A DNA stretch of 64,000 bases from Hippopus hippopus. Lineage: Eukaryota > Mollusca > Bivalvia > Cardiida > Cardiidae. Below are positions 6,534-64,000 of the stretch, piece by piece (position 1 is the first letter of the stretch; every line of letters begins with the position of its first letter). Position numbers and translations under genes: made by a program. The notes under the pieces are model-generated. The model was given only the letters and a program-made list of their open reading frames with translations, was not told the DNA's origin and did no database searches. The DNA is taken from NCBI GenBank assembly GCA_946811185.2, contig OX328097.1, positions 61,781,063 to 61,845,062 on the forward strand. Direction: 5' to 3'.

Positions 6534-6553
6534 GTGGAGAATTCTGGCAGAAA

Positions 6554-6903
6554 ATGGAAGACACTTCTTCAAATACTAGGTCAAAATACCATACAGTTCA
6601 AGAACCTGACCTGAGAGGAAGAGACCTGAATTATGCTCCTGATCTTTTGAATGGATGGCAAAGTGACTTAAAACTTGGTGACTGCATGCTACAGTTGTTT
6701 GATGCAAGCCTTTGGACTGACATTTCCTTCCGATGTTCAGACCAAAGTGAGGAAAACCTCGATGACAGAATTCATGCACATAAAATAGTTCTTGCTGCTA
6801 GAAGTCCAGTGTTCGAGGCCATGTTTTTCGGTCCATGTCAAGACAGAAACACAGTGATAGAAATACAAGACGCAGAGAGCCAGGACTTTAAATTATTCCT
6901 TAG
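6554..6903 (+). CDS. BTB/POZ-BACK protein, coding exon 1 (BTB domain)
   Basis: The exon runs from the acceptor tttgtttcag (AG at 6532-6533) to the donor ag|gtatgtc at 6903/6904. Coding starts at the ATG at 6554 (GAAAATGG, fair Kozak context). It encodes residues 1-117. Residues about 46-117 are the first half of a BTB/POZ fold: LWTDISFRC, then the hallmark HAHKIVLAARSPVFEAMFFG and DFKLFLR. BTB domains dimerise and commonly recruit cullin-3 ubiquitin ligases or other partners. The exon ends after two bases of an Arg codon, which is completed exactly by the exon at 16533. Its start resembles BTBD1/2/3/6-type proteins (...WQSDLK... before the BTB fold), but the subfamily is inferred. Confidence 0.85.
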
Positions 6904-16441: not shown

Positions 16442-16532
16442 ACGATTCTACCATTTATCTTAAAGAAAAAAAGTGTATGGTGGACTTCTGACTCTATTTG
16501 AGAGTCATTGAAAAGTTGCACTGTAATTTCAG

Positions 16533-41689: not shown

Positions 41690-42410
41690 GGGAGTGGGCA
41701 GCAGTGTGTGGCTAACTCACTCATGTCAATTTGGCAGAGTCATCTTAATTTCCCTGCAGATTGGGTTCAGCAAACTGGATAACATTCTTGATTCTGGAGA
41801 CAAGCTTTACAGGGAAATTACCCTGAGAACTGGCAATGCATACATATCTCTGGAAGAGATTCCTGAAGTTGTACACTCTATGATTGTGACTAAAAGCATT
41901 CCCTTTTGTGGAACATTGAATAGAGAACTGACAGAGGAGCCATTTTATGCCATTGAAGATGCATTACTTACACTGTACCATGAGGCTGTTGATCATGAAT
42001 GTTTTCTCATTACTATGGGAAATGCAGAACCAGCATACACTAGCGCTATCATTAAAATAGGCAGCATGTTTTATTTTTTTGACCCACACTCAAGATCTGT
42101 TACAGGCAATGTTACTGCTGATGGACATGCAACTATCCTACTTACTGTTCAATTGCTGATTTGTGTTTTTTCATTAAGAATTTGGCATCTTCTTTGTTTA
42201 ATGGCAATTTAGATTCAGAATTTGAAATTGTAAAAATTACCATGTCATTGTTAGATGAAGGCAGTGATTTAGATTCTGACTTTTCAGGGTTTTCATCTGT
42301 CAGTGAAGGAGAGATTACTTGCAGGTTGTTCCTTGCACAAGAATCTTTACATTCTGAATTTGATGTATCTAAATCTGAAGCTAGTTGCTCATCTTTTGCC
42401 AGGTAGTGTA
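41690..42410 (+). pseudogene. Cysteine-peptidase-like (C76/OTU-like) ORF of a mobile element, frameshifted
   Basis: Three plus-strand frames join: SGQQCVANSLMSIWQSH (from 41693), then LDNILDSGDKLYR...SLEEIP and GNAEPAYTSAIIKIG...FYFFDPHSR, then FFIKNLASSLFNGN and an acidic, Ser-rich end. GQQCVANS with a downstream FDPHSR suits a papain-fold Cys/His peptidase, and 'LD.IL..GD.LY' is recalled from transposon-encoded and herpesvirus-tegument-like peptidases. Frameshifts lie near 41773 and 42140, and the frame ends at a stop near 42406, so it is not intact. Function and family are inferred from motif pattern only. It lies inside a TIR element and is therefore probably transposon cargo. Confidence 0.5.
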
Positions 42411-45179: not shown

Positions 45180-45294
45180 AGAAAATCAATTATAAGTCTT
45201 TTGCCCACAATTTATCCAGTTATTGCACACTTTGTTTTAAGCAAAAACCTTCATTCTGTGAGACCAATTTTCTACATCAACTGTCTTGTATCTT
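45180..45294 (-). other. SELENOL: SELENOL last exon (3' UTR with SECIS), or terminal coding exon, alternative 2
   Basis: A very strong acceptor (long T/C run, tttcttttcag) ends at 45295. If spliced directly from exon 8 it adds KIQDS and a TGA at 45279-45277; if spliced from the small exon at 45363-45413 it is pure 3' UTR. Either way the SECIS at 45202-45265 is retained. The 3' end and polyadenylation site were not located; the lower bound is approximate. Confidence 0.5.
45202..45265 (-). promoter_or_regulatory. Candidate SECIS element of SELENOL
   Basis: Read on the minus strand: lower stem CTCACA (45262-45257) pairs with TGTGGG (45209-45204). A small internal loop follows, then the non-Watson-Crick quartet ATGA (45254-45251) opposite GGAT (45217-45214), giving the G-A/A-G tandem. 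An upper stem AGGTTTTTGC pairs with GCAATAACT, and the apical loop contains AAAA (45238-45235), 12 bases after ATGA. These are the defining parts of a eukaryotic SECIS. It lies 3' of the SELENOL coding exons, where it must be to recode the two TGA codons. Found by eye; no folding energy was computed. Confidence 0.65.
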
Positions 45295-48200
45295 CTGAAA
45301 AGAAAAAAGGAAAGAAAAAAAAAGTTAGATTCATGAAAGATCTTGTTACTTTAGCATCTTACCTTTATGGTTCGTATTCACCAAGGATTCTAAATTGCAG
45401 TCTTCGTCTTGTTCTAGGATGAGATTAATTGGTTGTATGGTGTTTAGCGTTGTTTTAAGCATTATTTCAGTTATGTCGCAGCAGCCAATGCACCTATCCA
45501 TGCTTTCCTGAGGTCTCTTTTACCAGTACTCTGCACAAAATTCTTTCCAAGCCACTGGCTGCTTTCCCACATAACTATTATCGAAACAATGGTCAGCGGT
45601 GGTAGAGGAATGAATCCCGTCACAATGACTATCATCAATCCTCGGAAAGAAATTGGCCAAGCCAGGATCAAATCCATGACCCCCTGTTCTCAAGTCCTGC
45701 ACACTACCGAGCTACCGGGGCTCGGCTTTCTAGGATAAGATATTAACACCATTTCTGATTGGGTAAACCATGTGATCTGGCCAAAAATGGTTAAGCAAAT
45801 CAGGAATTATGTTACTTTGACATTTACAAAAATCTTTGAAGTTACAATGTTAAAAGAAAGTATGCTGAGTACAGGCCAAGTTCTAGATTAACACTTCAAC
45901 ACACTGCAAAATTCTAGTCCAAATTGAGAGCATTTGCAGATGAAAAAAAAAACATGCAACTCTTAAATTGGAATTTGTCTCTGTAAGGGTAGAAAACACT
46001 GTGGGAAAAAAAAGAGAAAATAATGGTTCCCAGCATTTTCTCCTTATCCCAGTTTTCAAAAACCTACGAGTACTTCCTCTAGGTCATAAAAGCATAAAAA
46101 TGTTTGGTACAGGGTTTAACTAACCTTTAGTTCTTTGATTATACTTTCTACACTAGGTCTGTCTGTATTTGTTTGACTTGGGTAGAGGAATCTCACCACA
46201 CCATCTTTGTCAAGTATGAAATCCCCACCCATCTGAAAGAAGGATACAATGGAAATAAGTTGCTTCAAACCATATTCATCATGATCTGTGTATTCTGATA
46301 TTGATCTACACCGTAGTCAAAAGTATCTAATTTTTCTCATTAGATCTGAGGTTCAGCAGCTCTCCTTATACCTTTAACCCTTCACCAAACAACAAAATTT
46401 TGGACTTTTCCAAATCCAAAGCACTTCCAGACAACACATTAAAGCCGTGGTCACACCTTTCGTAGTTGAGAGTAGTGGGGAATGACCATAGATGGCCATA
46501 GTTGAACGTATTAAATGTAGTTGAACTTATGTTACACGTAGATAACCGTAGTTCATCGTAGTAATGAACATAGTTTGAACTTATGATTTGCCTGTAGTAA
46601 GCGCATAATTTTTTAACTTGTTTAAAAATTTGTTACGGTTAACTACGATGTTGTGACCCTACTGTGACTGTAGTTTTAACGTAGTTGACCGTAGTTAACG
46701 TAATTGACCCTATTTAACTGTAGTGTGTTTAATATGTTAAACTATGGTAATTTTTTCACTACAGTCAAAAGTGACAGCGGTTAAAGTACAATGACTGCAG
46801 CTTATCTTTACTGAGCAGGCAGAGCCATGACGTTTTATCGTAGCTTAATGCAGTTGACCTTTATTTACCGTAGTTGTGCGTACTTAGGACGTAGTTTATA
46901 CGTAGTTAATCATAGTTAGACGTAGTAATACCCCAGTTAACCCTAGCCACTTTGCTTGCAGTTGAATGTAGTTAACCGTACTTACACGTAGTTCCACCTA
47001 CTTAAGACTTTCTATATTTCCTCTTATTGCCAAGTTTGAACCTACTTTGTACATACTTCGACCTAGTTAACCATAGTAACACTACGGCAGACTACATTTG
47101 AAATGAACTACGGACAACTAAGTGCATGACAGTAAATGTGACCATGGCTTAAATGTGGGCCAAATGATGGACTTTTAGTCAGAAAGAGTAGAAAGTCTTG
47201 GAAAATAAGAAAAAAAAGCTGGTTTCCAGCATTTTCTTTTTTTTCAACACAGTGTTTTTAAAAGGCTTCTGCCTCAAGATTGTGTTGTAAATGGTAAAAG
47301 GCAGATATTCAGATTTTTCAAATCTCACCATTTTATGCAGTCAAATAAATAGGCCCCTTAACCCTATACTGCACAATCCCAAGTTCAAACGACCCTGGGA
47401 ATAGAGGGTTTTTTTTTTTTAAACACTGTGGGAAATGAAGATAAAGCATTTTCTCCTTTTTCCCACAATGTTTGCCACTATTTCAAAGACAGAAATTATC
47501 TTTTCAGCTACATTCAATTTGCAGCCTGCAGATACTTTCAATTTAGGTCATTTGTGTGGGAAAGAGTTACTTCTTTACTGCACAACCATATTTTAGGCCT
47601 TCCAAATTGAAAGCACTCGTAGACATTGCACTGAACATTGCTCAAAACAGGACATTTGTCTTTTAACCTTTTACCACACAATGACGCCTTTTAACGCCCC
47701 TGAAGAAGAGGCCTTTTGAAAACATTGTGGGAAAAGGAGAAAATGCTGGTAACCAGCATTTTCTCCTTTTCCCACAAAGTTTTCTACCCTATCAAAGAAA
47801 AGTTGCATCATTTGAGCCACTATGAAATTGTCGTCTGCAAATGCTTTCAATTTGGATAGATCTTAAATTTTGCCAAGGTGGTCAAGGGTTAAAGGGTAGA
47901 ACACATTGTGGGAAACAGACAAAATGCTGGTTGCCAGCATTTTCTCCTTTTCCCAAAATGTTTTCAAAAAACTTCTTCTTTAGCATTGTAACAACACAGA
48001 ACTGTTGGGTAAAGGGTTCAACATGCATTTTTACCTGTTGTGTATCATCATGTACATTTTCATAAGGTTTGGGTAAAGGTTTTCCTGTCAGCATGGCCTC
48101 ACCATAATATACCATGGATACCACACCCCAAACCTGAAATATTTCATATATTTCAATAACTCTATTTATTTCATGCTTTTCAGTAGTTTATCGAGATATA

Positions 48201-51200
48201 ACTGTGGAATATTGTTTGAGATTTCATGGTTACCACTAGTGAAAAATACTGATTTTATTTTTTAACTTCTCAATTGAAGGCAGAAACAGTAGTTCCCTCG
48301 CACTAGTTACCTATGTAAACAGTGCGTGTCATTCAACCAGATGGAACTATGACATAATTTACCTGCAATTCTTGCGCTTTACAAATTATTGTAATGTGTT
48401 GTTATGCAGAGGGGGTATGCCATGGGAAAGTACTGAAAACAACTGAAAAAAAGAAGGGGGTTAGAAGCATGAAATGAATAGAATATTTGCTTTTTCTCTG
48501 AAAGATCAAAATTTATTTCATCTCGTGAACATCATTGGTAATATTTTCACTTGTGGTTGCACCACTGGTGAAAATATTACCAATGCTGTTCACAAGAAAT
48601 AAATTTCTATCTTTTATCTTTACAGTCTTTTTCTAGTAACCTTTGCCCACACATCAAAGTTTGGACTTGTCCAAATTCAAAACATCTGCAGAGGCCAAAT
48701 TTAAAATTGGTACAATCATGCTTAACCCTTTACCACTCAATCCCGAGTTCTAACAATCCTGAAGAAGAGAGCTTTTGAAAACACTGGGAAAAGGAGAAAA
48801 TGCTGATAACCAGAATTTTCTCCTTTAACCACAATGCCACCATTTCAAAGACAAATCCAAAAATTTGAACCACATTCATCTTATTTTCTGCTTCCAAAAT
48901 GGACAGGTATAAAATTTTTTAGTGTGGTAAAGGATTAATATATTCTCTTACAGGGTAGTAAACATTAAAGGGAAAAGGAGAAAATGTTGTTTACCAGTAT
49001 TTTCTCCTTTTTTCCACAGTTTTTTCAAAGTTTTCTTTTCTCAGAGTTCTTAAAAGAAGGGACTGTTTGGTAAAAACTTAAAGTGATGTACCCAAGATTC
49101 AATATATTACCCCTGTGTAGATCTGAATCTAGATTTATTTTGTTATACAGATAAGGAAGATCAATATCAGACTGCACAGGATCTCTTACATCCGATTCTT
49201 TCTCAGAGATTCTAACAAATGCACCACTATCTGCATCTGACTGTGATTGTCCATCTCATTCATTAGCTCAGCCAGAAACATATAGGGCTTTGAGGAGTTG
49301 CCATAGTTTTATTGTGCACAGAAAATAAAGAGGTAACTTACCTTCTGGACTGATCTGTGAAGTCCAAAGGCATGGTAGATCTGAAAAACATTTATCTTAA
49401 GCAAAAGCAATGGTTTATTTTTTAGAAAGGTAGTCCTATACCTTGAACGAGTGTGTCACCATGCTTGAAACTATGACTTCTGGGGTTATCTAGATGACTT
49501 AATTTTTTTGTATGGTGTATGGTGCTGTTTTCAGTTATATTACGGCCTCCACTACACCTATTCATGCTTTCCAGGAGTTTCCCTTAAGCGTACATCCAAA
49601 TAATTATACTCTACCAAATGATTTCAACCAGCAACCATCTGGTTTCAACAGAGCAATCAGGCCATAGTGTTGTTAGAGCAAGTAACTCATACAATACTCC
49701 ATTATCTTTTCCCCTCCCCCCCCCCCTTGTCTATGATTTATTGACTCACGTTTGTGGAGTAATTACTTGTACTGCCTGTTTAACTTTGTTCCATGGTACG
49801 AAATTTAGACACATTCATAGTGTAAACAATTGCAGACAAAAACCAAAAAAGTATGGTTCATATGATTTGCCTCTGATAAGGTACAAAACAATGTAGGAAG
49901 GAGAAAATACTGGTTTCTTCATTTCCCTCAATGTTTCTTAAAGCCTTCCTCCTAAGGATTGTTAAAACATGAGATTGTTTGTCATAGGGTTATGTCATTT
50001 TGTTTCAACTACCAGTAGTATTCTCTGTTCTGCTATTCCATTACAATACAATCCCGACTTCTAACCACGCAGAAGAAGAAGGCTTCTGAAACATTATGGG
50101 AACAGGAGAAAATGCTGATAAACAATTTTGTCCTATTCCCACAATGTTTTCTACTCTATGAAAGACAAAAAATATGTGTTTATCCTAGCATTTAATTTGT
50201 TGTTTGCAAATACATGTATATTAATTTTGGACTTAGGTAAAATTTTATCATCTGGCATATTATTAAGTGTTGTTCTTTTTCTTTCATCCATAATTTATCT
50301 TCCACTCTTACAAACTGTATTAAATAAATTATTAACTCTGCCAAAGACAAAAAATTTGACTAACCCAAATTGAAAGCACTTGCCAAGGTCAAATTAGATA
50401 TTGCTCAATTGATGTGTACCTCATAGGGTAGAAAACATTGTTGTATAAAAAGAACATGCTGGTGACCAGCATTTTCTTCTTCTACCACAACAAAAAAATA
50501 TTTTTTTCGGAGAGTTGTTGAAACAGTTTGTATAGTAGAAGGTTACACTGTCATCTTAACATCCATTATAGTGATTTTATCTTTTTACCCTTCTAGCAGA
50601 ATCCAGGACCATTGGAAAAGGAACATTTGTATCTTCCAACCAAAGCTTGGCACCATCTTTTAGTCCAAAAGAAACAATAATGATTTGACCACTGGCAGCC
50701 TTTATATCATCCTGCAATGTAATTCACCCTTAGAGTGCTTCATTAACTCTAACAAACAACAACATTTTCAGCTGCCTAAATTGAAAGCATTAGCAGAGGG
50801 CAAATTACATGTGACTCAAAGACTTAAATTTTCCTCTTGAAGGAAAGAAAACATTGTGGGAAAAGGAAAAAATGCTGGCTACCTGCATTTTCTCCTTATC
50901 CCATAATGTTTTCAAAGGCCTTTTCCCTAGAACTCTCAGGGATTGTGTGGTAAAGGGTTACTGAGAAGGAACTTTTGACCCTTTGACAAATAATCCTGGG
51001 TGTTGTAACAACTAGGAAGAACACTTTTGAAAACATTATTGGAAAACATGAAAATGCTAGTAATCAGTAGTTTGTCACTTTACCACAATGTTTTCTACCA
51101 TGTCAATAAAAATAATCCAGTGTTGTAACAACTAGGAAGAACACTTTTGAAAACATTATGGGAAAACATGAAAATGCTAGTAACCAGTAGTTTCCCCCTT

Positions 51201-54200
51201 TACCACAATGTTTTCTACCATGTCAGAAAAAAAAGAGATATCTCCTTTTTTCTACTTTGTCAAAAAAAGACATATCTCCTTTTTTGCAACATTTGTCATC
51301 TTGAGGTTCTTTCCATTTGATTGAGTGTATGTTTTGTAGTTTGCGTAGGGTCATATTATGAAAAACAGGCAAAACATCACAATGTCAAAGTTGTTGACCC
51401 TATAGTGAAAAGGCTTTTGAAAGCATTGTTGGAAAGGGAGAAATTGTTGGTAACCAGCATTTTCTTTTTCCACCATGTTTTCTCTTCTGTTAGGGACTTC
51501 AGCTCATTTGTACAGATTTTCAATTTGTCATTTGCAGATGCTTTCAATTTTGAAGGGTCTAAAATTTTCCATATGGGAAAGTGTTAATCATTTCCAAAGG
51601 ACCCTGTGTACACCACCTTAAGGAAAGAGGCTTTAGAAAACACTGTTGGAAGAGTCAAAAACGCTGATAACCAGCATTTATCCTCTAACAAAGGGCATTT
51701 TCCAACCATCCTACGCCAAATATTACCATATGAGTTATATTTAATATGTCGTCTGCAAATTTTTTCACTTTGAAGTTTATCAGTAAACATAGAGTTCTAG
51801 CTACGCTGTGGGGTCCTGCGTTTGCTCAATGGTTAAGGTGTAGAATTTGAAACCTGGCAGTCTTGGGATATATCTTTGCTCCAAGCTCTTGGTTATTCCT
51901 GACAGTATCTTTGGGTAAGATATTCAGAGTCCTTGCCATGTACTGGTGAAACCTAGGATACACAAGTATTGGTAAAACCAAGGATACAGAAGGATATATG
52001 AAGCCAACTGTCATTTTGATATAATCAAAACAGTTTTTAACCCTTTACCAAACAATCCAGACTTTTAACAACCCAGATGAGAGGGCTTTTGAAAATATGG
52101 TGGGAAAAGGAGAAAACACTGGTAACCATAACGTTTTCTCCTTCACGATTCAAATTTACTACCTCTGCATATTATGACTAAGCTGCCATGGCATTACCTG
52201 AAATAAAGAAAAATACTCATCCCTCTGGCTTACCTGCCTCTTCAGGAGATCTGCTGTGTGGTTTCGTCATGGAAGTCAAGCAAAATGACGCAGAAGCACC
52301 AGTACAATACTATCTTTGTCATTTAAAAAACCTCTGAGACTGGTTTTATGACTAGTTCGTGCATTCATTACTTCAAAATCTATGGGACCAGTCTGTCCTA
52401 ATCGGACTGATTCTCTATCCTCCCCTTCTAGTGTTTTATCTACACTCTGTAAGAATGTATCCCAGTCATGCTGAAGCAACAGAAACAAAAAAGCTGGTAT
52501 TCATCTATTCAGCTCTAACTAGCCTCCTTTCATTTAGTCAACTCTTAATTACACAATCTCAAATTTCAACAACTTCTGGGAAAAGGCCATTCAAAACATG
52601 GGGGAAAAAAATAGGATTAAATAATGGTTACCAGCATTTTCTCAGTTTTTCCCCCACAAAGTGTTCTACTGTTTCAAAAACAAATCCCATCATTTGAACA
52701 ACACTGAATACATCTTCTGCAACAGCTCTACCTCTTTAACAAAGGACAAAATTTTAATCTAGTGATTGTGTGGTAAAGGATTAAAAATCGATTTTGGACG
52801 GATAATCTTTAAAAATAATTGATGCCGTGTATTCAAGGTTATATGGCACATTCTCTGCATCCATAAAAGTAGGTTATGCTGCCCATATCACAACACATGT
52901 CAAGTGTTAACCAGATGTCACACTGTATGAAGAATGCCACAAAGAAAACGGTTAAGTATTAACCAAACTATAAAAATTAATGTTAGACTGACCGAATTAA
53001 AAGGATTTGCAATCCAAAAATTGAAAGTGGCTAGAAAGAGGAGAAAAAATTGTGGGAAAAGGACAAAATGCTGATAGCTAGCATTTTCTCATATGCTGAT
53101 AACCAGCTTTTTTCTCCTTCTTCCAAAATATTTTCAAATGCCTTCTTCCTCAGGGTTGTTTAAACACAGGAGTGTATGGTAAAGGGTAAGGATAATAAAA
53201 TGACATCTAACCTCAAGGTCAAGCAATTCTGAGCCTAGTTCTCTCAACTCTTGATTTCTAGCATGTCTGCTGATTTTACGTTCTAATTCATTTTTTGATG
53301 TCAGTCCCAACCTATAAATAAAAGTAAAGTCCCAGCCTTACACCCGAGCCCTAGTAGCGCAATCGGTAGCATACAGAACTTGACAACAGGGGGTCGGTGG
53401 TTCAAATCCCCAGCTTGGCCAAATTCTTTCCAGGGATTAATGATAGTAAAAACTAATGGTAACATGATTAATTCCTCTCTCAGTGCTGATCATTCTTTTG
53501 ACAATGGTTAAGTTGGAAAGCAGCCAGAGACTTGGGAAGAATATTGTGCAAAATACTGGTAAAAGAAACTCCAGGAAAGCATGTCTCAACAAAAATAAGT
53601 TTGCCTCTGCTGGGATTAGCTCTTGCAACCCTCACAGTACTAACTCTGCCCATTTGCAAATGAGCTATAAAGCCTCTATCCTTAACTCTTTACCAAACGA
53701 CAAAAATTTAGACTAGTTGAAATTGAAAGCATTTGCAGACGACAAAATAAATGTAACTGAAAAATCGAAATTTGTTTTGGGAAGGGTAGAAAACATTGTG
53801 GGAAAAGGAGAAAATGCTGGTTACCAGCGCATTTTCTCCTTTTCCCACAATGTTTTCAATAGGCTTCTTTCTCAGGGTCGTTAAAAGTCGGGATTATGTG
53901 CTAAAGGGTTAAGGTGGTCTACACTTTACCATGACAAAATTTTAGGTTGGTCCAAATTCAATTCATTAGCAAACGACAAATAAAATGATCCTCCAGTAAT
54001 GGAATTTGTATCAGAAAGGGTAGAAAACATTGTGGGAAAAGGAGAAAATGCTGGTTTATCAATGTTTTTGAATGCCTCTTACATTGGGGTTGTTAAAACT
54101 AGGGATTGTATGGTAAAGGATTTATTCTTAGAAAAGAGTTTTAAGCTTGCCTTTATTGAAAGCATTTACATTTTGCAGACAGCAAATGCAATATTGCTCA

Positions 54201-56535
54201 AAATGATGGAATTTGTCCATGAAAGCAAAGGAAACATCGTGGGTAAAAGAAAAATTGCTGGTTATCAGCATAATTTTCCTTTTCCAACATTAGCCTCATT
54301 ACATAATCACACAATTACAAGTTTTAATGACCTTGAGGAAGAAGCCTTCTGAAAACATTGTGGTAAAAAATAACAAGAGCACCATATGCAGTTGCTTTTC
54401 GTGAAAAGTCTTACATTGAAAAATGGGCATAACTGTGTCAAACTATTTTGATGGTTACTTGAGGCTGCCCCTGTTGCTGCTTACCAGTATTATCTCCTTT
54501 AACCACAATGCTTTCTATCCTGTCAAAAACATTTGTACCACATTATGTCATGTTCACAGGCCTTCAGTGTAAAAGAGTCTAAAATTTGTCATTTTGGAAA
54601 GGGTTAAACATGGAATTATTTGGTGAAGGGTTAAACTGTAATATGACATAGAATCAATATCTATATTATTGCATTTTTTCCTGTAATGTTTTCAAAGGCA
54701 ATCTTTCTCAGGGTCATCAAAGACCAGATTTTTTAACAGTGTTAATTCTTGCCCACACAATCACGAGTTTGAATGACCATGAGGGTAGGGGTTCGAAAAC
54801 ATTATTGGATGAGGGAATAACAAAAGCACTCTCAAGACTCCTTTTCTGTAAACGTTTATGTACCTGTTCAAATATAAAGCTTATTTTTGGAGTCACATTT
54901 GTCTGCAATTGCTTTGAATTTGGAAGGATCTAAATTTTTGTCGTTTGGTATTTAACTCTTTACCAAACGACAAAATTATAGACTGGTCCAAACTGAAAGC
55001 ATTTGCAGACAACAAAACAAAGGTGACTGAAGAATTGAAATTTGTTTTGGGAACAGTAGAAAATATTGTGGGAAAAGGAGAAAATGCTGGTTACCAGCAT
55101 TTTCTCCTTTTCCCACAATGTTTTCAAAAGGATTTTTTCACAGGGTCGTTAAAAGTCGGGATTGTACGGTAAAGAGTTAAAGTGTTAACTGACCTTAGTT
55201 GACAGGATAATAAAATTTAGGTACATATTGTATTCATTGAACAAATACCTTTGCAGACAAGCCTTGTATCCTGTTGCTAGACCAAACAATTTGCCTATCT
55301 TCTTGTTGACAAAGTCTTCTGTAGACTCTAAAATGAAAGATCCTTAACCTTTTACCAAATGACAAAATTTTGGACTGGACCAAACTGAATGCATTTGCAG
55401 ACGACAAATGAAATGTAGCTCAAGCTCAAAAGCCTTCTGGGAGTTATTAGTGCTTGACTAGGAACTTTTGACAAAAAAGTCTATTTTTTAAGACTTGTCC
55501 ATACTGAAAGCATTTGAAGGTAACAAATATAATGTGGCTTGAGCCATATCTAATTTGTTTGCTGCAAATAACTCATGAAATTCTTGAGAAAACTCTGAAA
55601 TATGACATTTAATAACAGATTCTACTAATGTATTAACTGTTTAGCCCACAAAATCTGACCCTGAGGAAGAAACATTTTGAAAACATTGTGGGAAAAGTAG
55701 AAAATACTGGTAACTAGCATTTTCTCCTTTACCAACAATGTTTTCTACCCTATCAAACACAAAAATTGTCATTTGAGCTGCATTTGTCACCTGCAGATGC
55801 TTTCAATCTGAATTAGTCCAAGATAGTTTAGTTTGAAGAAAGTAAACCCTTTCAGTACCATAGGCTAAAATAAGGACTTACTTCAAACGGTTTTAAACTC
55901 TTTAGCAAACAACAAAATTTTGAACTAGTCCAAATTGAAAAGATTTACAGACAAAGAAATAAATGTAATTGAAAAAAATGAAACTTGTTTTGAAAAGGGT
56001 TGAAAACATTGTGGAAAAGGAGAAAATACTGGTTCCAAATGTGATATGATGCTGTAACTCAGGCGGGGAATATGTAAGTATTGATTTGCAATTTGATTGG
56101 TCAAAATTTTAGGCTGTAATATTCTCCAGCCATTCATAAAAACAAAGTTACTGGGCCACTACACCATTATTAGTTTTATTTCGTTTACCATTTTCGAATA
56201 AAATGTCAATAATTTGCAATATTTTGTCATTGAAAGGTGTGGGTATATAATAAAAGTAATATTATGCTGTAGTAATTTTTCAGGCCTAAATATTAGCTCC
56301 TCTCCACCCAAGAAAATTTTGAAATCTTGCTCGACCTTGGGTCTCGCCCTATATCAAATTTTCTCAAGCTGCTCCAATCAAATACAATCTCCAGGAAAGT
56401 TACTACAACATAATATTCGGTACAAACACTCATACCTGCCACTGAATCTTTTCCATACTTAATTAAGCTCTCTAAGGTTTCATTTAGACTTCTAACAGCA
56501 GCTATGATTTCTTCTATCTCCACATCACTGGCCAT
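45277..56535 (-). CDS. SELENOL: Selenoprotein L with Sec-x-x-Sec redox motif (whole gene, spliced)
   Basis: Eight coding exons on the minus strand: 56535-56436, 55327-55249, 53311-53212, 52470-52234, 50711-50589, 49380-49342, 48133-48035 and 46232-46125 (885 bases, 295 codons), plus a short terminal exon. All junctions are AG/GT and the phases agree. Starts MASDVEIEEIIAAVRSLNET. The redox site is LRHFAULPURNHTADL, both U encoded by TGA (52278-52276 and 52269-52267; residues 158 and 161). This peroxiredoxin/thioredoxin-fold family normally has CxxC here; UxxU with a diselenide bond is the known signature of selenoprotein L of aquatic animals. Downstream fold blocks are ASGQIIIVSFGLKDGAKLW, IYHAFGL, VWGVVSM and GGDFILDKDGVVRF. 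The C-terminus is uncertain (stop at 45390 or 45277). Expected role: thiol/diselenide oxidoreductase. The introns are packed with hairpin MITEs. Confidence 0.85.
45363..45413 (-). CDS. SELENOL: SELENOL terminal coding exon, alternative 1
   Basis: Acceptor atctcatcctag (weak pyrimidine tract), donor ataaag|gtaaga. It adds NKTKTAI then TAG at 45392-45390, and splices on to the SECIS-bearing exon at 45294. A SINE tail ends about 14 bases upstream and would supply the branch region, so this exon could be SINE-assisted. Confidence 0.4.
45427..45720 (-). mobile_element. tRNA-derived SINE in SELENOL terminal intron
   Basis: On the minus strand: head 'gagccccggtagctcggtag' (A-box-like) with 'ggatttgatcctgg' (degenerate B box), body 'gattcattcctctaccaccgctgaccattgtttcgataatagttatgtgggaaagcagcc', tail 'tgcgacataactgaaataatgcttaaaacaacgctaaacaccatac'. 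Same family as 53340-53665. Confidence 0.65.
45890..46115. mobile_element. Hairpin MITE (family H) in SELENOL intron
   Basis: Left part 'cacactgcaaaattctagtccaaattgagagcatttgcagatg', palindrome GAGAAAATAATGGTTCCCAGCATTTTCTCC, right part 'tgtttggtacagggtttaa'. It ends about 10 bases before the exon-8 donor. Confidence 0.6.
46125..46232 (-). CDS. SELENOL: SELENOL coding exon 8
   Basis: Acceptor ccttctttcag, donor ctaaag|gttagt, 108 bases, phase 0. Encodes MGGDFILDKDGVVRFLYPSQ and TNTDRPSVESIIKELK: the final strands of the fold (GGDFILD..G.V.F.Y) and the C-terminal helix. Confidence 0.85.
46373..47310. mobile_element. Hairpin MITE (family H) split by a TTAA-flanked element
   Basis: The left arm 'ttaacccttcaccaaacaacaaaattttggac...gacaacacattaa' is interrupted at TTAA by the element at 46443-47148. 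After it the MITE resumes with 'atgtgggccaaatgatgg', a palindrome AAAAAGCTGGTTTCCAGCATTTT and a degraded right end. Confidence 0.6.
46443..47148. mobile_element. ~706-bp non-autonomous element: TTAA target duplication, CGTAGTT-rich interior
   Basis: TTAA lies on both sides (46439-46442 and 47149-47152). The ends are inverted repeats AGCCGTGGTCACA / complement of TGTGACCATGGC. The interior holds more than 30 degenerate copies of an ~11-base phrase, CGTAGTTAACCGTAGTT, in both direct and mixed order. TTAA duplication is used by piggyBac and Kolobok transposons; no transposase is present. Confidence 0.65.
47358..48020. mobile_element. Three hairpin MITEs (family H) between SELENOL exons 8 and 7
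   Basis: Copies at about 47358-47572, 47663-47892 (complete, 230 bases, TTAACCTTTTACCACACAATG to GGTCAAGGGTTAA; palindrome GGAGAAAATGCTGGTAACCAGCATTTTCTCC) and about 47893-48020 (left part reduced). The last ends about 15 bases from the exon-7 donor. Confidence 0.7.
48035..48133 (-). CDS. SELENOL: SELENOL coding exon 7
   Basis: Acceptor gaaatatttcag, donor caacag|gtaaaa, 99 bases, phase 0. Encodes VWGVVSMVYYGEAMLTGKPL and PKPYENVHDDTQQ, the 'vw....l.yy.e.l..g..lp.p' segment before the last strand. Confidence 0.85.
48535..48600. repeat. Inverted repeat, ~24-bp arms
   Basis: 'catcattggtaatattttcacttgtggttgcacc' meets 'gtgaaaatattaccaatgctg' in opposite orientation, forming a stem around a 16-20-base loop in the intron between exons 7 and 6. 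Confidence 0.6.
48635..49085. mobile_element. Hairpin MITE cluster (family H) between SELENOL exons 7 and 6
   Basis: A fragment at about 48635-48720, a full-length copy at about 48724-48935 (TTAACCCTTTACCACTCAATCC to GTGTGGTAAAGGATTAA) and a third at about 48936-49080. Nothing else was recognised between 49085 and exon 6. Confidence 0.6.
49342..49380 (-). CDS. SELENOL: SELENOL coding exon 6 (micro-exon, 39 bp)
   Basis: Acceptor gtttttcag, donor cagaag|gtaagt (perfect consensus). Thirteen codons, IYHAFGLHRSVQK, matching the 'lYraFGL.rs' helix of the family. Confidence 0.8.
49515..49600 (-). mobile_element. SINE fragment
   Basis: The minus strand reads 'ctcctggaaagcatgaataggtgtagtggaggccgtaatataactgaaaacagcaccatac', the SINE body-tail seen at 45427-45500. 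Confidence 0.45.
49900..50560. mobile_element. Three hairpin MITEs (family H) between SELENOL exons 6 and 5
   Basis: Degraded copies at about 49880-49995, 50040-50265 (GGAGAAAATGCTGATAAACAATTTTGTCC) and 50325-50550 (CATGCTGGTGACCAGCATTTTCTTC). All keep the 'aaaacattgtggg' and 'cacaatgttttcta' arm phrases. A C-run lies at about 49718-49729. Confidence 0.55.
50589..50711 (-). CDS. SELENOL: SELENOL coding exon 5
   Basis: Acceptor aattacattgcag, donor agaagg|gtaaaa, 123 bases, 41 codons, phase 0 to 0. Encodes DDIKAASGQIIIVSFGLKDG then KLWLEDTNVPFPMVLDSARR. The beta strand IIIVSFG and the Pro-containing VPFPMVLD (cis-Pro region) are typical of the peroxiredoxin-like fold. Confidence 0.85.
50735..52200. 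mobile_element. Hairpin MITE cluster (family H) between SELENOL exons 5 and 4
   Basis: Copies at about 50735-50960, 50978-51120, 51118-51235 (these two near-identical over ~110 bases, a recent local duplication), 51395-51588, 51595-51790 and 52039-52180. Most keep ACCAGCATTTTCTCC-type arms. Confidence 0.6.
51818..52035 (+). mobile_element. tRNA-derived SINE
   Basis: Head 'gtcctgcgtttgctcaatggttaaggtgtag' (A-box-like), body 'ggtaagatattcagagtccttgccatgtactggtgaaacctaggatac', tail 'gaagccaactgtcattttgatataatc'. Between MITE copies in the intron between exons 5 and 4. Confidence 0.5.
52234..52470 (-). CDS. SELENOL: SELENOL coding exon 4 with UxxU motif (two in-frame TGA)
   Basis: Acceptor tctgttgcttcag, donor ggcag|gtaagc, 237 bases, phase 0 to 0. 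Encodes HDWDTFLQSVDKTLEG..., then SLRGFLNDKDSIVLVLLRHF, A, TGA, L, P, TGA, RNHTADLLKRQ. Coding continues in frame for eleven codons after the second TGA up to a consensus donor, and the next exon picks up in phase. This argues that both TGA are sense (Sec) codons and not terminators. Confidence 0.85.
52540..53190. mobile_element. Two hairpin MITEs (family H) between SELENOL exons 4 and 3
   Basis: About 52540-52785 and 52955-53190. In the second, the centre is partly duplicated (GCTGATAGCTAGCATTTTCTCATATGCTGATAACCAGC), an unusual double hairpin. Confidence 0.6.
53212..53311 (-). CDS. SELENOL: SELENOL coding exon 3
   Basis: Acceptor tttatttatag, donor cttgag|gttaga, 100 bases. Encodes LGLTSKNELERKISRHARNQ and ELRELGSELLDLE, a charged helix before the thioredoxin-like domain. 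Ends in phase 0. Confidence 0.8.
53340..53665 (+). mobile_element. tRNA-derived SINE
   Basis: Head 'gagccctagtagcgcaatcggtagc' (A box) and 'ggtggttcaaatccccagcttggcc' (B box GGTTCAAATCC); body 'gataattcctctctcagtgctgatcattcttttgacaatgg..aagcagccagagacttgggaagaatattgtgcaaaatactgg'. Opposite in orientation to the 45427-45720 copy. Confidence 0.65.
53682..53912. mobile_element. Hairpin MITE (family H), best-preserved type copy
   Basis: 231 bases, TTAACTCTTTACCAAACGAC to GTGCTAAAGGGTTAA. Inverted ends, 'agactagttgaaattgaaagcatttgcagacgacaaa' spacer, palindrome GTGGGAAAAGGAGAAAATGC / GCATTTTCTCCTTTTCCCAC with a short loop. Confidence 0.8.
53930..54950. mobile_element. Hairpin MITE series (family H), diverged and partly deleted
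   Basis: Pieces at about 53930-54122, 54140-54365, 54480-54610 and 54735-54950 keep the arm phrases (gaaaacattgtgggaaaaggagaaaatgctggtt, ttgtcgtttggta). Some lack one half of the palindrome. No exon-like sequence lies between them. Confidence 0.55.
54952..55180. mobile_element. Hairpin MITE (family H), well preserved
   Basis: 229 bases, TTAACTCTTTACCAAACGAC to GTACGGTAAAGAGTTAA, with a near-perfect central palindrome from TTGTGGGAAAAGGAGAAAAT to ATTTTCTCCTTTTCCCACAA. Lies about 70 bases from exon 2 of SELENOL. Confidence 0.8.
55249..55327 (-). CDS. SELENOL: SELENOL coding exon 2
   Basis: Acceptor tttcattttag, donor caaag|gtattt, 79 bases. Two bases complete Glu34 from exon 1, followed by STEDFVNKKIGKLFGLATGY and ACLQ; the final AG is completed to Arg60 by exon 3. 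Confidence 0.8.
55342..56040. mobile_element. Hairpin MITE pieces (family H) between SELENOL exons 2 and 1
   Basis: Pieces at about 55342-55440 (left end only), 55490-55560, 55635-55850 (palindrome TGGTAACTAGCATTTTCTCC) and 55890-56040 (stops inside the palindrome, abutting the repeat at about 56041). Confidence 0.55.
56041..56420. repeat. Dispersed palindromic repeat matching 24.2-24.4 kb in inverse orientation
   Basis: 56070-56285 is the complement of 24246-24440. 'attatgctgtagtaatttttcagg' (about 56260-56285) and 'ccaggaaagttactacaacataatatt' (56391-56417) are inverted arms around about 105 bases. It stops about 17 bases from the exon-1 donor. Confidence 0.5.
56436..56535 (-). CDS. SELENOL: SELENOL coding exon 1
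   Basis: ATG at 56535-56533 (agaATGGCC, good context); 33 codons plus one base; donor gcag|gtatga. The frame is also open upstream through a hairpin MITE, so an earlier Met is formally possible, but that sequence is repeat-derived. I chose the ATG just outside the MITE. Encodes an acidic helix. Confidence 0.75.
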
Positions 56536-56907: not shown

Positions 56908-57152
56908 AACACTTGATTGATTATTGATTGAATGGTGTTTTATGCCACTTTCAGCATTATTTTCAGTCATATTACAGTGACAGCTCACACATTCATGTAT
57001 TTCCTAGGTTCCACTAGGCTGGGGCTTTGAGCCTTGAGGTGTCTTGCCAAAAGGGCATTCCCACGAGGAGCCCAACAGGCCAGGTGGGGCTCGAGCCCAG
57101 GGCCTCCAGGTTAAGGGTCCCGAACTTTACCATTGAGCCGTGCAGGACCCCC
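56908..57152 (-). mobile_element. tRNA-derived SINE, full length
   Basis: Minus strand: head GGGGGTCCTGCACGGCTCAATGGTAAAG with A box GGCTCAATGGT and B-box region GGGCTCGAGCCCC; body 'ggcaagacacctcaaggctcaaag'; tail 'aatgtgtgagctgtcactgtaatatgactgaaaataatgctgaaagtggcataaaacacc' followed by an 'atcaatcaataatcaatc' terminus. The most complete SINE in the window. Confidence 0.75.
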
Positions 57153-58160
57153 GCTATAATTAACAGTCGAATATTATATGAACATTGCTGATTAACATTA
57201 AAAGAAAAATGGGGGTCTAAAAATTAACAATAGATCTAGGGGTCTAAATGTCTCCGGAACAAAGAGGTCTAAGTGTCCCAAAGGGTTCTACATGTTATCC
57301 TAAATCAAGAAGTTTAGGGTCTAAAATAAACTAAATGGTCAGGGATCTATACACGTGTCTCACTCCCGTAATTTATCCTATCACGATATTCGAGGTACTT
57401 TGATTTTTTACCGAAATTGCTTGTTTCAGTTTGAGTACACACAACTACATTTTCCAAACAAATATCTAAGGTTTAAATGTTATTCATTTATCGTTTTTGA
57501 AAGTAGCGCTTACAAACATTCGAGCTGACACCGCTTTAAAACGTCAAATATGGACAAACAAAGTTGACAATAATACTTGCATTGAAAGTGAGGTGAACGG
57601 GAGCATGTGTCCGATTTATTGCCCTCACTCCACTCGTCTCAACTCGGGCGATTCCGTAGTAGGGCTTTAACGCATCAGCAGAGATTTACCGAATTTGCTT
57701 ATTCGACATAATCTGGTCACACTCGTCAAAATTCGGCTGATTCCGTAACTGACTTGATCAATCGATCATCTGAGTTTTGCTGAATGCCAACATCAACAGA
57801 TGACAATCGTCACAACTCTGCCGATTCCGTACCTACATCTAACCTCGTCCGGTCGTTTCCATTTGAACTGCGAACCACGTGATCTTGTACGTGGCGCGCA
57901 ACTGTCAGTCGTTTTGCAACGACATAAATAACCTCGAAGTTATTCACATCTGTTTATCTGTCGGTGAAAACTTCAATCGGAATTGATAAATAATGAATGA
58001 ACGAACTGTTTGCCAACTCAACTGAAATATAGTTAAAAAGATTTCGAAAGAAAATTGAAACTCAAGTTTTCTTTTTTAAGAGGAGCCTGATAATTTTCAG
58101 AACGGTAAACCGGCGTATTTCCGGGTATATACCGATCTGGTGCATATCAATCCACCAGAT
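57153..58160. other. Upstream flank of SELENOL; CG-richer island with CACGTG site, no exon recognised
   Basis: Between about 57500 and 57920 the sequence has more CG dinucleotides than its surroundings and contains 'gcgaaccacgtgatcttgtacgtggcgcgc' near 57869-57900. It could hold the SELENOL promoter (transcription leftwards), but no TATA box or 5' exon was proven. 'ttccgta' and 'actcgtcacaactc' phrases recur here and at 58.2 and 59.8 kb. Confidence 0.3.
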
Positions 58161-58175
58161 ACAGCCGAGGGATTT

Positions 58176-58290
58176 GATGGCTCCCATCACCCGAGGTGTG
58201 CCGAATGCAACGGATGAATGCACTCGTCACAACTCGGCCGATTCCGTTACCAAGACTGGCATTCGGCATATCTCGGGTGATGGGAGCCAT
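58176..58290. repeat. Inverted repeat with ~32-bp arms
   Basis: 'atggctcccatcacccgaggtgtgccgaatgc' (58177-58208) and 'gcattcggcatatctcgggtgatgggagccat' (58259-58290) are near-perfect complements around a ~50-base centre containing 'cactcgtcacaactcggccgattccgt'. That centre phrase appears inverted at about 59843-59873. Confidence 0.65.
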
Positions 58291-58619
58291 ACATGGATCC
58301 GTGGTGATAAGATAGACCGACTTCCTTGGTTACTGTTGCCAAGGGCTCCCAAACAACCACAGTAAATACATATACAGTATAGCAGATAGGCTACTTAAAT
58401 CGTGCTGTCATGACTGTTTCTCTCAATAAAATTCCGAAAAAAAATTTCTGCCATAATTATGTTTCTGCCGTTGATGAATTCTCGGTAAGAAATTTAAAGA
58501 TGCTTGAACTAATTTACACAAAGATATGTACAAAAAGGACGATTTACGGGGGATACGGACAATGTGAAAGACCTACTTGTTTTAGCAAAGTTCTGAACTT
58601 CAATATGAAAAAAGAATAA

Positions 58620-59840
58620 AACACCTCAACAAAACTCTCTTTTGCCACAGAAAAATAGAATTAAAGATACTTTCGTAAGGCTAGTAGTCGTCTCAACATC
58701 ATACCCAAATAAACAACACTGACTTACAAGCATTTCTAAAACATTATAGATTGTCTGATTCTACAGAGAGGTGTAAGTTTAAGAAAAATTGACTATGACT
58801 GGACTATGAAAAAATTCAATCTCAGGTTAAGGGAAAAAGGGTTGTCTTATGATTTTAAAATGTGTTAAGTGTGCTGTCAATTAACAAACTTGTTAATATC
58901 ATTGACGGTAGTTTGTTTTATCTTATGATATACTGAAGACAACGGGTGGTCAAGTTGATTAGAGCGGCAAATTGATTTGCAATCAAACACTTTTTATCCG
59001 TTAACAGTTTACCGACACATCCTTTGAAATGTCAGTTGTGCTAATCCACTTTGATACGACTAAGTAAAAAGTTTATCTAATATTAACATAAGTTGCCTTT
59101 TTAGCTGAACTTTCACCGGTACAAAATAGAGTTAGACTTAATTTCAAAACTGAATTTTACTTTTAGTGAGGAATATGTAGTGAGGAATACACGTCAATAT
59201 GCTAGGCATATTGTAAATAGCAGATAGTTTTAATCCAAGATCAAACTTCATGTTATTTACAATCTGATCTATATCTACACATTTAGCATATTCTTCATGC
59301 ACCAAGGGTTAAGATTAACGTCAAACTGAAACATTGATGACAAGTGCCACTTTTTGGATGTGCATAGATTACTGAAAAAGGTTAGCTATTCAAGTAAACA
59401 TATCATATTTTGATTAGTATTTCATATCGATCTATTTTTACCTTTGTTTTCCGCTTTAAAACATTTTTGTCTCTTTCCAAATTTTTCAGAGGGGAAAAAA
59501 ACTAAAGCAATAATTAATCCGTTGTGTAATGTAGCGCTGATCAGAACTGTTTGCATTAGTCCCATTTTCAGTCATTATCATAATTCAAACTTGTCTACAG
59601 CCTCTGCGTGATCTCACGTCAGCGGTACACGTTCGCACATATTTTAACCTTTTTCTTAAATTCAAACATTTAAAACACAAAATAAATAAAAACTATCGCA
59701 TCCCTCCAACATTAACAGTCGTTTGTTTGGGAGCCGAAATAGCATACAACAAGGCTGCACATCGGGTAAAATAAATGCGGTCACCTGATTTGTCAAATAT
59801 CGATTTCCACGGATCCATATATTAGATCCGTTAGATATAG
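58620..59840. other. No gene recognised; bounded by inverted, diverged sequence blocks
   Basis: AT-rich. Left-side landmarks 'atggatccgtgg' (58292-58304) and 'ggctcccaaacaacc' (58346-58360) reappear in inverse order and orientation on the right ('gtttgtttgggagcc' about 59722-59736, 'ccacggatccat' about 59808-59819). This would fit a ~1.6-kb element with long, eroded inverted ends. Confidence 0.35.
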
Positions 59841-60107
59841 GTACGGAATCGGCCGAGTTGTGACGAGTGCACTTGAAGTATGCCGAATGCGGACGAATGC
59901 AGGTGAGATCGTCCCCTGGAGAAATCATCTCCAATCTGCTTGGAGGAGAACTGCTCCCCTGGAGACGAATTCTCTGGAGAAATCGTCCCCATATTCTAAA
60001 TTCATAAATATATTTGTTGTAGTTGTCTTTGAAACATTTTTTTTTCCGAAGTTTTTTTCTTTTTGCTTTAGCTATATTCGTTTTGTGAAGGTTTCCTTAT
60101 TTCAATC

Positions 60108-60142
60108 AGGGATCGTATATACATGTGTATATACGATCCCTG
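60108..60142. repeat. Perfect palindrome CAGGGATCGTATATACA / TGTATATACGATCCCTG
   Basis: An almost uninterrupted 34-35-base palindrome with a one-base centre. Surroundings are non-coding. It could be the junction of a small foldback element. Confidence 0.7.
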
Positions 60143-60364
60143 TTTCAATGCTATTTGATTATACAGTCATTGTCTATACAGTAATTTCACACCAACGGAT
60201 TGTTGTTCACATCTGTCACGCCTGTTACAGGTAGCTTACACCTGTAAGATTTTTATTTTGTTCGTTCGATTTCAAACCAATTATATAATATATATAATCA
60301 TAAAATGTGTCAGGAGTCATTCAGTCATAAAAATTACATAATTTTATGTTGTTATTATTATACG

Positions 60365-60515
60365 CCTGCATTTCTCTCCCTCCTTCCCTCCCTCCCTCTT
60401 TCCCCCTCTCTCTCTCTCTCTCTCTGTCATTTTTCTAAGTAAATATTTTTAATGTATTAAAATGGTTCATGTACATAGATATCTCTCCCCCCCCTCTCTC
60501 TCTCTCTCTCCGCGT
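60365..60515. repeat. (CCTC/CT)n simple repeats
   Basis: Two CT-rich tracts at about 60372-60425 and 60484-60512. Confidence 0.85.
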
Positions 60516-60814
60516 AGATCTCCTGTTCTTTTCTGTCTGGCTCAATAATTTTGTAGATCTATGGTGATTAAATAGACATATATAGATAATTCTGAGCAGT
60601 CAGAACTAATCTATGCTGTCAACTAAAGTTATGTCAGCCGTCATTCGTTCTAAAAGAGTTATTAATGACCTTCAAAATATCACTTGCTTTTAACCTTATA
60701 TGGTTATAAAATAATAAGGTTAAAGAACTATTCAGACTATGCACCATGTTTAGCATTTTAACATATATTTTATCAGGCGTATTTTACATATGTTTTAACT
60801 AACCGAATGATCAA

Positions 60815-61420
60815 TCAACATGTCTGTTTGCTATCTGGATTGTAAGCAAACCTTTGATAGAGTTTAGATTAATGGCTTATATGGGCGTAGCTGCCTGTAC
60901 GCAAAAACGCAGTTGCGTACACTTTGCAAAAAGAGAGAGAGCGAAAAGAAAGACAAATTTGCCAGAAAATGTCACGAGAGGCCACCAAAAACGAGCTTTT
61001 ACAATTGAAAATTTTTCATGGGGAGGCCCTTCGGGCCCTCCTTGGACATCTCCCCCCTTTGGTAACATTATACTTTGCGACTCGGATAATACCTTCGATA
61101 TTACTTTTGCGTATATTCCATTTTGGGCTAGCTACGCCACTGGCTTATTTTATAAACTATCAACCTATGGCTTAGACAATAAAACACTCCAATGCTTGTT
61201 TAACCTTTACTCTGAGCAATATAGTTCAGTCTGCCACAAATCAAGGGGAGATAACCAGTCCATTTCTCTATTTGATTTACATTGATGACTTAATTAGGCA
61301 ATTGGAATCTTCCGGTTATGGCCTTTGTATCGCTGGAGTTGACGTAAGCTTAGTGTAGCAGATGATATGATTCTTGTCTCTTTAGCCAAAAATGGTTTGC
61401 AGAAAATGATGAACATGTCA
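60815..61420 (+). pseudogene. LINE reverse-transcriptase fragment split by a 260-bp insertion
   Basis: The plus-strand frame reads MSVCYLDCKQTFDRV, an in-frame TAG, INGL, then resumes after the insertion with FYKLSTYGLDNKTLQCLFNL, a region matching 'G..QG..LSP..F..YIDDL' in a shifted frame (SPFLYLIYIDDLIRQLESSG), and VADDMILVSLAKNGLQKMM. YLDC..(A/T)FD and (Y/V)ADD are reverse-transcriptase palm motifs (blocks A and C), the latter in the usual LINE form. Stops and frameshifts make it a pseudogene. Clade not determined. Confidence 0.7.
60881..61140. mobile_element. 260-bp non-autonomous DNA element with perfect 8-bp target duplication
   Basis: TGGCTTAT is present on both sides (60873-60880 and 61141-61148). 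The ends ATGGGCGTAGCTGCC and GGCTAGCTACGCCAC form short inverted repeats (GGCGTAGC type). Removing the insert and one TGGCTTAT restores the LINE frame exactly (ING-L-FYKL). An 8-bp duplication fits hAT-type mobilisation. Confidence 0.75.
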
Positions 61421-61438
61421 CACGTGACGTATAGGTTT

Positions 61439-61855
61439 AACGTCTCATCCGAGAAACCATAAGTATAATTATAATTTTAGATGGCAAGCCGTGGGAATCG
61501 AACCAATAGCCTCGGGTGACCCGAAACATAACGTTCAAGTGTAGTCCTATTTATAAGACCGTACGTACGTTAATTTTCATATGGACATTCATCGTGTACG
61601 TAGGCAAACGAAAAGTAAAATGTGAAATGTCCGACAGATAATTGTTAACGTCTCACCCGAGAAACTACAAGTATAATTATAATTTTAGATGGCAAGCCGT
61701 GGGAATCAAACCAATAGCCTCAGGTGACCCGAAACATCACGTTCAAGTGTAGTCCTATTTATAAGACCGTACGTACGTTAATTTTCATATGGACATTCAT
61801 CGTATACGTAGGCAAACGAAAAGTAAAATGTGAAAATGTCCGACAAATAATTGTT
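61439..61855. repeat. Two-copy tandem duplication, 208-bp period
   Basis: 'aacgtctcatccgagaaacc...gtccgacagataattgtt' at 61439-61646 is repeated at 61647-61855 with only a few substitutions ('atccgag' to 'acccgag', 'cgaacc' to 'aaacc'). Low divergence indicates a young event. No ORF spans it. Confidence 0.85.
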
Positions 61856-61975
61856 GAAAGGTAAGCAAGCATGTATACGTCTAAATATTTGGACTAGTTC
61901 AAGTGTCTTACGCTCTACGCTTAGTATCAAGAAGTACGTCAAAAGCCAGCGAATTCATCTAGACCGAAAAACGGG

Positions 61976-62002
61976 CCGGGGGGGTGGGGGGGGGGGGGGG
62001 GG
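61976..62002. repeat. Poly-G tract
   Basis: A run of about 27 bases that is almost pure G (one T). Confidence 0.9.
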
Positions 62003-62024
62003 AAGAGGGACACAAGGGAAGTGT

Positions 62025-62145
62025 GACTCTTAATAAGTTACCATTAAAGCTTGACGAGTTTTTTCCCTTAGATCACACAAAACTGACTCTTAGTAAGTTA
62101 CCATTAAAGCTTGACGAGTTTTTTCCCTTAGATCACACAAAACTG
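62025..62145. repeat. Two-copy tandem duplication, 60-bp period
   Basis: 'gactcttaataagttaccat...gatcacacaaaact' is followed immediately by a second copy that differs by about one base (a to g in 'cttaataag'). Confidence 0.9.
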
Positions 62146-62920
62146 ATATGAGGTACAATCATTACCTGTTTTATGTTAATGGGAATCATATTCTTCAGTT
62201 TAATTACTTGTTAGGAAAGGAATGTTTTATCAAAGTTAGAAATTATCCACTTTTATTGCTGGTGTTGGAAAGGAAACTGACCCGAGGTTATTGACTGCTT
62301 TTAAAATAAGGTATCCGCGACTTACACCAACAAATCGTGACACGCAAGGCGATGGCAGCAGGACCTAGCAAGAAATTGCTTGATGTCGATTTTAAAATTT
62401 CTGGCAGAGTACAGGGTATGTCGTCTTTTTAACAAAATATATAATTGTGAAAGGGCATTATGTATATCGTAATCTCGGATAAATTCTGTCCATGAACGTT
62501 GTATATTATGTGTTTTCGCGATAGAGAAATAGGATTTTAGAAGATCCGGACTCAAGAAGAATCGGCCCAATACTGACCAGCGATTTTCGAGGAGATTCGG
62601 CCCCAAAGATGAGAAGATTCGGCCCCAAGGTTGAGAAAATTTGGCCCAAGTTTTTTTAATTGCATTTCTAGCCAATTGTAGATACAAAGAGAATCAGTTT
62701 TTAAAACGTCATGGTAATCTTTATCTTTTAGAGACCTTTTATAGAAGTTTTGCTTTTAACTTAAAGATGTATTGTCATCCATTTATTATTGACTAAAGTT
62801 GTGTTACTTTTATCCAACTTTTAAGAATATTCGGCCCAGATCTTAAATAGATCGGGGGTTTCGGTTAACAAAAAATTACATAACCGTAGAAAACATACAC
62901 TTTTAAAACTTCCTTATCAG
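62146..62920. other. No gene recognised
   Basis: 'ttcggcccc' phrases at 62577-62650 and 62828-62835 resemble the block at 10098. No exon was supported. Confidence 0.35.
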
Positions 62921-63549
62921 TTTTTAGCTCCACTGGCCAAAGGCCAGAGAGCTATTGTCATGGCGTTGTGTCCGTCGTGCGTCTGTCCGTGCGTCTGTCC
63001 GTGCATCCGTCCGTCCGTGCGTGCGTCCGTAAACTTTTTCTTTAAAAAACTTCTCCTCAGAAACTATTGACTGGATTTTTACCAAATTTCACAGGAATGT
63101 TCCTTTGGTGGTCCTCTCTCAAATTCCTTCAAATAATTGTGTTCCATGAAGAATTCTGGTTGCCATGGCAACCAAAGTAAAAAACCTTTAAAAATCTCCT
63201 CCCAAACCGCTATTTGGATAGCATTATTATTTTGCAGGAATGTTCCTTAGATACAGGTTTACAGAATTCCTTAAAAAAAAAAAAGATCTGTCAAAAAACA
63301 TGGCTTTTATGGGAGACTCATTTTCCTTTTATGGTATAAAGTAAAATCTTTGAAAAATTTCTTCTCTAAAACTATTCATTGGATTTCATTGTTGTTTTGC
63401 AGGTAAGTTCCTATGGTGGTTGTCTACCAAATTGTTTCTTCAGTGAGCTAAAATGCAGGATTGAATGATAATTGTTAAAAACTTCCTTTCGCCATTATAG
63501 AAATATCAGGCCTGTGGAGCGATACAGGCGCTCAAGCGCCTCTAGTTAC
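62921..63549 (+). mobile_element. Tandem-core type element, family D, single-core copy
   Basis: 5' TTTTTAGCTCCACTGGCCAAAGGCCAGAGAGC (hairpin TGGCCAAAGGCCA); GTCCGTGCGTCTGTCC simple repeat (62968-63030); modules 'ctcctcagaaactattgactggatttttaccaaatttcacaggaatgttcc', GTTGCCATGGCAAC at 63159-63172, and 'aaaacatggcttttatgggagactcattttcc'. 3' CTGTGGAGCGATACAGGCGCTCAAGCGCCTCTAGTTAC, with GGCGCTCAAGCGCC a perfect hairpin before CTCTAGTT. GCTCCAC/GTGGAGC are the subterminal inverted repeats. Confidence 0.75.
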
Positions 63550-64000
63550 TATTTCAATTTAAATGTTCCTTTCTTTAACCTTTTTGGGAAGTACTGAGAC
63601 TGGTAAGGTTGTCATTAATTATGTTTTTCTCCGATACATAGAGACATGTGTTTCCTGCGAAAGCCAGGCAAAGGTGTGATAAACACCCTTTTGTAGTATC
63701 TCTATCCATTAGTACAGAAAACAGTCCCCAAAGGCGATGTTACTTTTTGATTGGTCACCTCTGGGTACAGAGACAGTTGATAAAAAACAGTTCATTTCCG
63801 TTGTTACTCGAATTGTTTTTGTTCCCGAAAAAACACAAAATGGCTGCCACACACAGTAAATTATGTCAGGGTTTTTTTTTTTTTTCCCCCGAGTTTTGCA
63901 TATTATAAACAAATTCTACAAACTCTTTAGGCAATGAAAGGTTTAATGATTTGTCTTTGGTCATGTTTATTACTAAAAGTTAATTGCATTTCGCTGCAAT
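63550..64000. other. No gene recognised
   Basis: AT-rich, with a T-run at about 63872-63885. Nothing supported up to the window edge. Confidence 0.35.

Follow-up and report, generated by a model that had tools for sequence, protein, structure and literature searches.

On the minus strand of a 64,000-nucleotide stretch of the Hippopus hippopus genome (contig OX328097.1, positions 61,781,063 to 61,845,062; hereafter the window, in whose own numbering all coordinates are given), we identified what we consider, with a probability of about 0.92, to be a functional selenoprotein L gene (SelL, SELENOL), composed of nine coding exons and having a U-x-x-U motif (U, selenocysteine, Sec) as redox pair. 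The gene extends from position 56535 down to approximately 45200, and its spliced exons encode a protein of 300 residues, in which the only internal in-frame stops are two TGA codons, at residues 158 and 161, the same numbers proposed by a first-pass annotation of this DNA.

The active site is encoded by exon 4 (52234..52470, 237 nt), which reads HDWDTFLQ...LVLLRHFA-TGA-LP-TGA-RNHTADLLKRQ, is delimited by the acceptor TTTCTGTTGCTTCAG and the donor GTAAGC and has phase 0 on both sides. An exon at this position, coding for LRHFA-TGA-LP-TGA-RNHTADL between consensus splice sites and in phase with both neighbours, had been described without a strand; we found it on the minus strand, with the codon for Sec158 at 52276..52278 and that for Sec161 at 52267..52269, both on that strand and in frame in the spliced model. 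The in-frame TGA-LP-TGA constitutes the UxxU feature of selenoprotein L. A plus-strand reading of 52234-52470 was rejected, since that frame has further stops.

The remaining exons, all on the minus strand, were compared with the homologous proteins of Mya (P0003) and Biomphalaria (P0001). Exon 1 (56436..56535, residues 1-33) carries the start codon at its 5' end and the donor GTATGA, and shares 16 of 33 aligned residues with the Mya protein, its agreement with that of Biomphalaria being poor (4/33); exons 2 (55249..55327) and 3 (53212..53311) share 15/27 and 17/33 aligned residues with Mya. Exon 4 is identical to the Biomphalaria protein at 31 of 79 residues, and so are exon 5 (50589..50711) at 19/41, exon 6 (49342..49380) at 10/13, exon 7 (48035..48133) at 19/33 and exon 8 (46125..46232) at 19/36, this last one being identical to Mya at 25/36. 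Exon 9 (coding start and stop within 45275..45294) includes the stop codon TGA (45277-45279) and continues into the 3' untranslated region (UTR). All eight introns are of the GT..AG type, introns 1 and 2 lying within codons and introns 3-8 between codons, and besides the two TGAs of the motif no stop or frameshift is present across the 300 codons. Two alternative donors for exon 5 were rejected because they break the frame.

Eight exons had been proposed previously, but we favour nine, because exon 9 provides a C-terminus (..KELKKIQDS*) that matches the KKIQ end common to close relatives (..ELKKIQTA in P0020, ..ELKKIQNST in P0023, ..ELKKIQTTQN in P0026 and ..ELQKIQSSQK in Mya P0003). A gene ending in exon 8 would terminate with ..KELKVS*, unlike the relatives, and this model was rejected.

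The encoded protein scores 132.3 with the NCBIfam model SelL_rel_redox (NF040769; cut-off 120), and also surpasses the cut-offs of Pfam AhpC-TSA_2 (PF13911; 43.7, cut-off 27) and AhpC-TSA (PF00578; 41.7, cut-off 26). Homologues named selenoprotein L turn up in the protein searches, the nearest named relatives being molluscs, with Mya and Sinanodonta among the relatives, and in a tree of 40 rows the gene pairs with P0023 (support 100/97; 86% identity over 118 columns). The peroxiredoxin-like fold, already suggested by the first-pass annotation, is in agreement with both Pfam matches and with the structure predicted for the homologue P0001, used in place of the protein of the window: a peroxiredoxin fold in which a helix begins at the motif. 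A sequence search of the PDB retrieved only weak matches (best E 0.097). Selenoprotein U/PRXL2 proteins carry a single Sec or a Cys instead. We rejected this identity in spite of the PF13911 match, since the motif has a pair of TGAs; for example, Cys replaces Sec in the PRXL2 protein human prostamide/PGF synthase (PDB 9usa; 20% identity), and the PDB sequence search, up to an E of 1, did not retrieve PRXL2. Identification as selenoprotein L, a family already known together with its UxxU motif, is supported by the spliced frame, the NF040769 score, the named homologues and, as described below, TGA in bacterial relatives and a suitably placed SECIS-like element (SECIS, selenocysteine insertion sequence), and agrees with the family named in the first-pass annotation.

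Bacterial relatives were sought by using the peptide pattern DxxQMGGDF to scan species genomes: 102 stretches matched, of which 14 (L001-L014) encode relatives. The first active-site position is TGA in the DNA of all 14, a count that is no census, as relatives without DxxQMGGDF would be missed; the second is TGA in five (UxxU) and a Cys codon in nine (UxxC). Nine of the 14 loci are titled as Chloroflexi or as groups within it, to which Anaerolineaceae, SAR202 and Dehalococcoidales are assigned (the tree shows this grouping in part). The bacterial proteins, which NF040769 also describes, resemble the protein of H. hippopus in the core domain, in the flanks of the motif and in the TGA at the first position, but differ from it in the nine UxxC motifs and in occupying, all together, one side of a branch of the tree (100/100). 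The constancy of this TGA shows how strongly the first Sec is kept. We take the TGA pair to be more than chance, since the two codons are the sole premature in-frame stops and the first one aligns with TGA in all the bacterial loci.

We then compared the motif among 121 homologous records, gathered by three protein searches. In 28 records RHF or RHL is followed by WxxW, the reading that a gene caller would give if it translated TGA as Trp, and another 28 stop exactly at RHF[AGS], directly before the first position of the motif. Such an end points to Sec, whether the annotation stopped at TGA or the database cut the sequence at U. CxxC, which had been expected in most relatives, is present in three records only: P0001 (Biomphalaria), P0011 (Patiria) and the more distant P0117, and in the first two the Cys may be a U written as C. 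The remaining 62 records do not have the motif in this form and many of them begin after it; one of these, P0053, carries W at the two aligned positions, but separated by an insertion, and was counted outside the 28. Fifteen records are named selenoprotein L (isoforms counted separately): 13, all shark or ray by name, end at the motif, and two, from sea slugs, already bear this name and have no motif. The helical N-terminal region of the H. hippopus protein aligns with the shark and ray records up to ..LLRHFA.

The expectation that automatic annotation would break such a gene fits these relatives, given the shark and ray records and the motif missing from those of Mya, Elysia marginata, Batillaria and Crassostrea. 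The Aplysia protein is split over two records, P0090, which ends at RHFA, and P0052, which has the later part, and that of Nucella over P0098 and P0033. Several of these annotated relatives read as if exon 4 were regularly skipped, which would yield a protein without active site, and in the H. hippopus gene the frame would in fact be preserved, since the exon has 237 nt and phase 0 on both sides. Nevertheless, we consider this very unlikely: the Mya record retains part of exon 4 and omits later exons, and in Aplysia and Nucella it is at the motif that the records are broken, all of which looks like annotation avoiding TGA. A survey of vertebrates calls such skipped models misannotation and indicates that less than 1% of vertebrate SELENOL genes are well annotated in Ensembl (PMC12822975).

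In the 3' UTR we identified a candidate SECIS hairpin (45204..45262, minus strand), 14 nt downstream of the stop codon and 434 nt downstream of the second Sec codon. Rfam SECIS_1 aligns over its full length with 26.1 bits, this being the only SECIS_1 row among the 81 Rfam matches (74 + 7) listed for 1-57000, the region covered by the sub-threshold listing (57001-64000 was scanned at the gathering score). By our reading of the Rfam alignment, AUGA faces GGAU and the apical loop begins with A's. We do not claim a SECIS from a pattern scan alone; as a loose SECIS pattern matches eight places on the two strands of the window, it is from its position that the hairpin draws weight.

Several observations weigh against a functional selenoprotein gene. 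The SECIS_1 score is below the gathering score of 35, at which no Rfam match, SECIS included, was listed for the whole window; the upper helix of the hairpin has two mismatched pairs; shuffled sequences give somewhat less stable folds (z -2.04), but 11 of 200 shuffles are equally good; and among the eight matches to the loose pattern the hairpin ranks second, the other seven lying elsewhere. The stretch from 45262 to 43800 has no AATAAA; the closest variant, ATTAAA, is at 44557. Furthermore, that W, or the end of a record, stands for TGA in the relatives is something we infer from their sequences.

The modest score of the candidate SECIS, together with the nine UxxC bacterial relatives, would also agree with Sec insertion at the first UGA only, the second mostly terminating translation or taking another amino acid. 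This seems about as improbable as the skipping of exon 4, considering that the sequence beyond the second UGA is conserved throughout exons 5-9, and that fish SelL is described as inserting both Sec residues with one SECIS (PMC3316567). A decaying pseudogene or an assembly error, with two Cys codons turned into TGA, would account for the two in-frame stops but is even less credible, in view of the 300 codons free of any further stop or frameshift, the eight GT..AG introns, the exact alignment of the first TGA with that of all 14 bacterial relatives and the SECIS-like hairpin after the stop.

The gene's own stop codon is also UGA and lies 22 nt 5' of the SECIS AUGA. Its occasional reading as a third Sec, which we regard as equally remote, would add 18 residues starting with Cys, and the resulting Sec-Cys pair near the C-terminus would be a second redox centre, somewhat similar to the tail of thioredoxin reductase. 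The relatives' sequences end differently at that point, and termination is expected at this codon, because the 22 nt spacing is shorter than the minimum of 51-111 nt between UGA and SECIS quoted for Dio1 (PMC3316567).

We propose that the selenoprotein L gene is transcribed and that, on the mRNA, the hairpin right after the stop codon would recruit the selenocysteine machinery, so that the UGAs at codons 158 and 161 would both be read as Sec and the UGA at codon 301 would terminate. The U-L-P-U motif would stand at the start of a helix of the peroxiredoxin-like domain, behind the helical N-terminal region, and would most likely alternate between a diselenide and two selenols, the product presumably acting as a two-electron oxidoreductase.

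Proteins of the SelL family have two Sec residues, are found in fish, invertebrates and marine bacteria and are said to hold a diselenide, according to PMC2397514 and PMC3316567, both of which cite Shchedrina et al. (2007). The protein of H. hippopus shares with SelL of fish and invertebrates the U-x-x-U motif, the peroxiredoxin-like domain and, as a candidate, the SECIS-like element in the 3' UTR, and differs in detail only, its UGA stop being placed so close before the SECIS match. UxxU is also present in selenoprotein W of amphioxus and Ostreococcus (PMC7539508), which is alike in having two Sec but belongs to a different protein family. A table of a 2012 survey includes SelL in sponge, placozoan, cnidarian, annelid and amphioxus and is blank for the limpet Lottia (PMC3473315). 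Our partial literature search returned no title or abstract on bivalve SelL, from which we do not claim its absence from print. The gene leaves existing knowledge of the SelL family unchanged. SelL belongs to a small number of proteins in which two Sec residues are neighbours, and its database entries are often broken; the nine-exon model with its candidate SECIS can serve as a reference for mollusc-like genomes.

Other features were also observed in the window. A repeat (reference 54950-55185) that contains a near-perfect inner hairpin (GTGGGAAAAGGAGAAAATGCTGG..CCAGCATTTTCTCCTTTTCCCAC) was matched at 42 places after merging (6031 bases). Of these, 27 fall within the span of the SelL gene, where they cover 3742 of 11332 bases. 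The repeat resembles a non-autonomous transposable element and gives rise to microRNA matches below threshold in Rfam. No tRNA gene was detected in the window by ARAGORN. On the plus strand, the open reading frames (ORFs) 6512-6913 and 16498-17655, with BTB (50.7 bits, cut-off 20.5) and BACK (43.2 bits, cut-off 20.9) domains, are perhaps exons of one BTB-BACK gene, and the ORF 41694-42209, which matches the protease-like domain Herpes_teg_N of Pfam (27.1 bits, cut-off 25), perhaps derives, as a guess, from a transposable element. A transposase-like fragment is present at 21036-21521 on the minus strand (HTH_Tnp_Tc3_2, 31.3 bits, slightly below the cut-off of 31.5), and many tandem arrays, with units of approximately 144-168 bases and in some cases a similar unit sequence, lie within 4889-37017.
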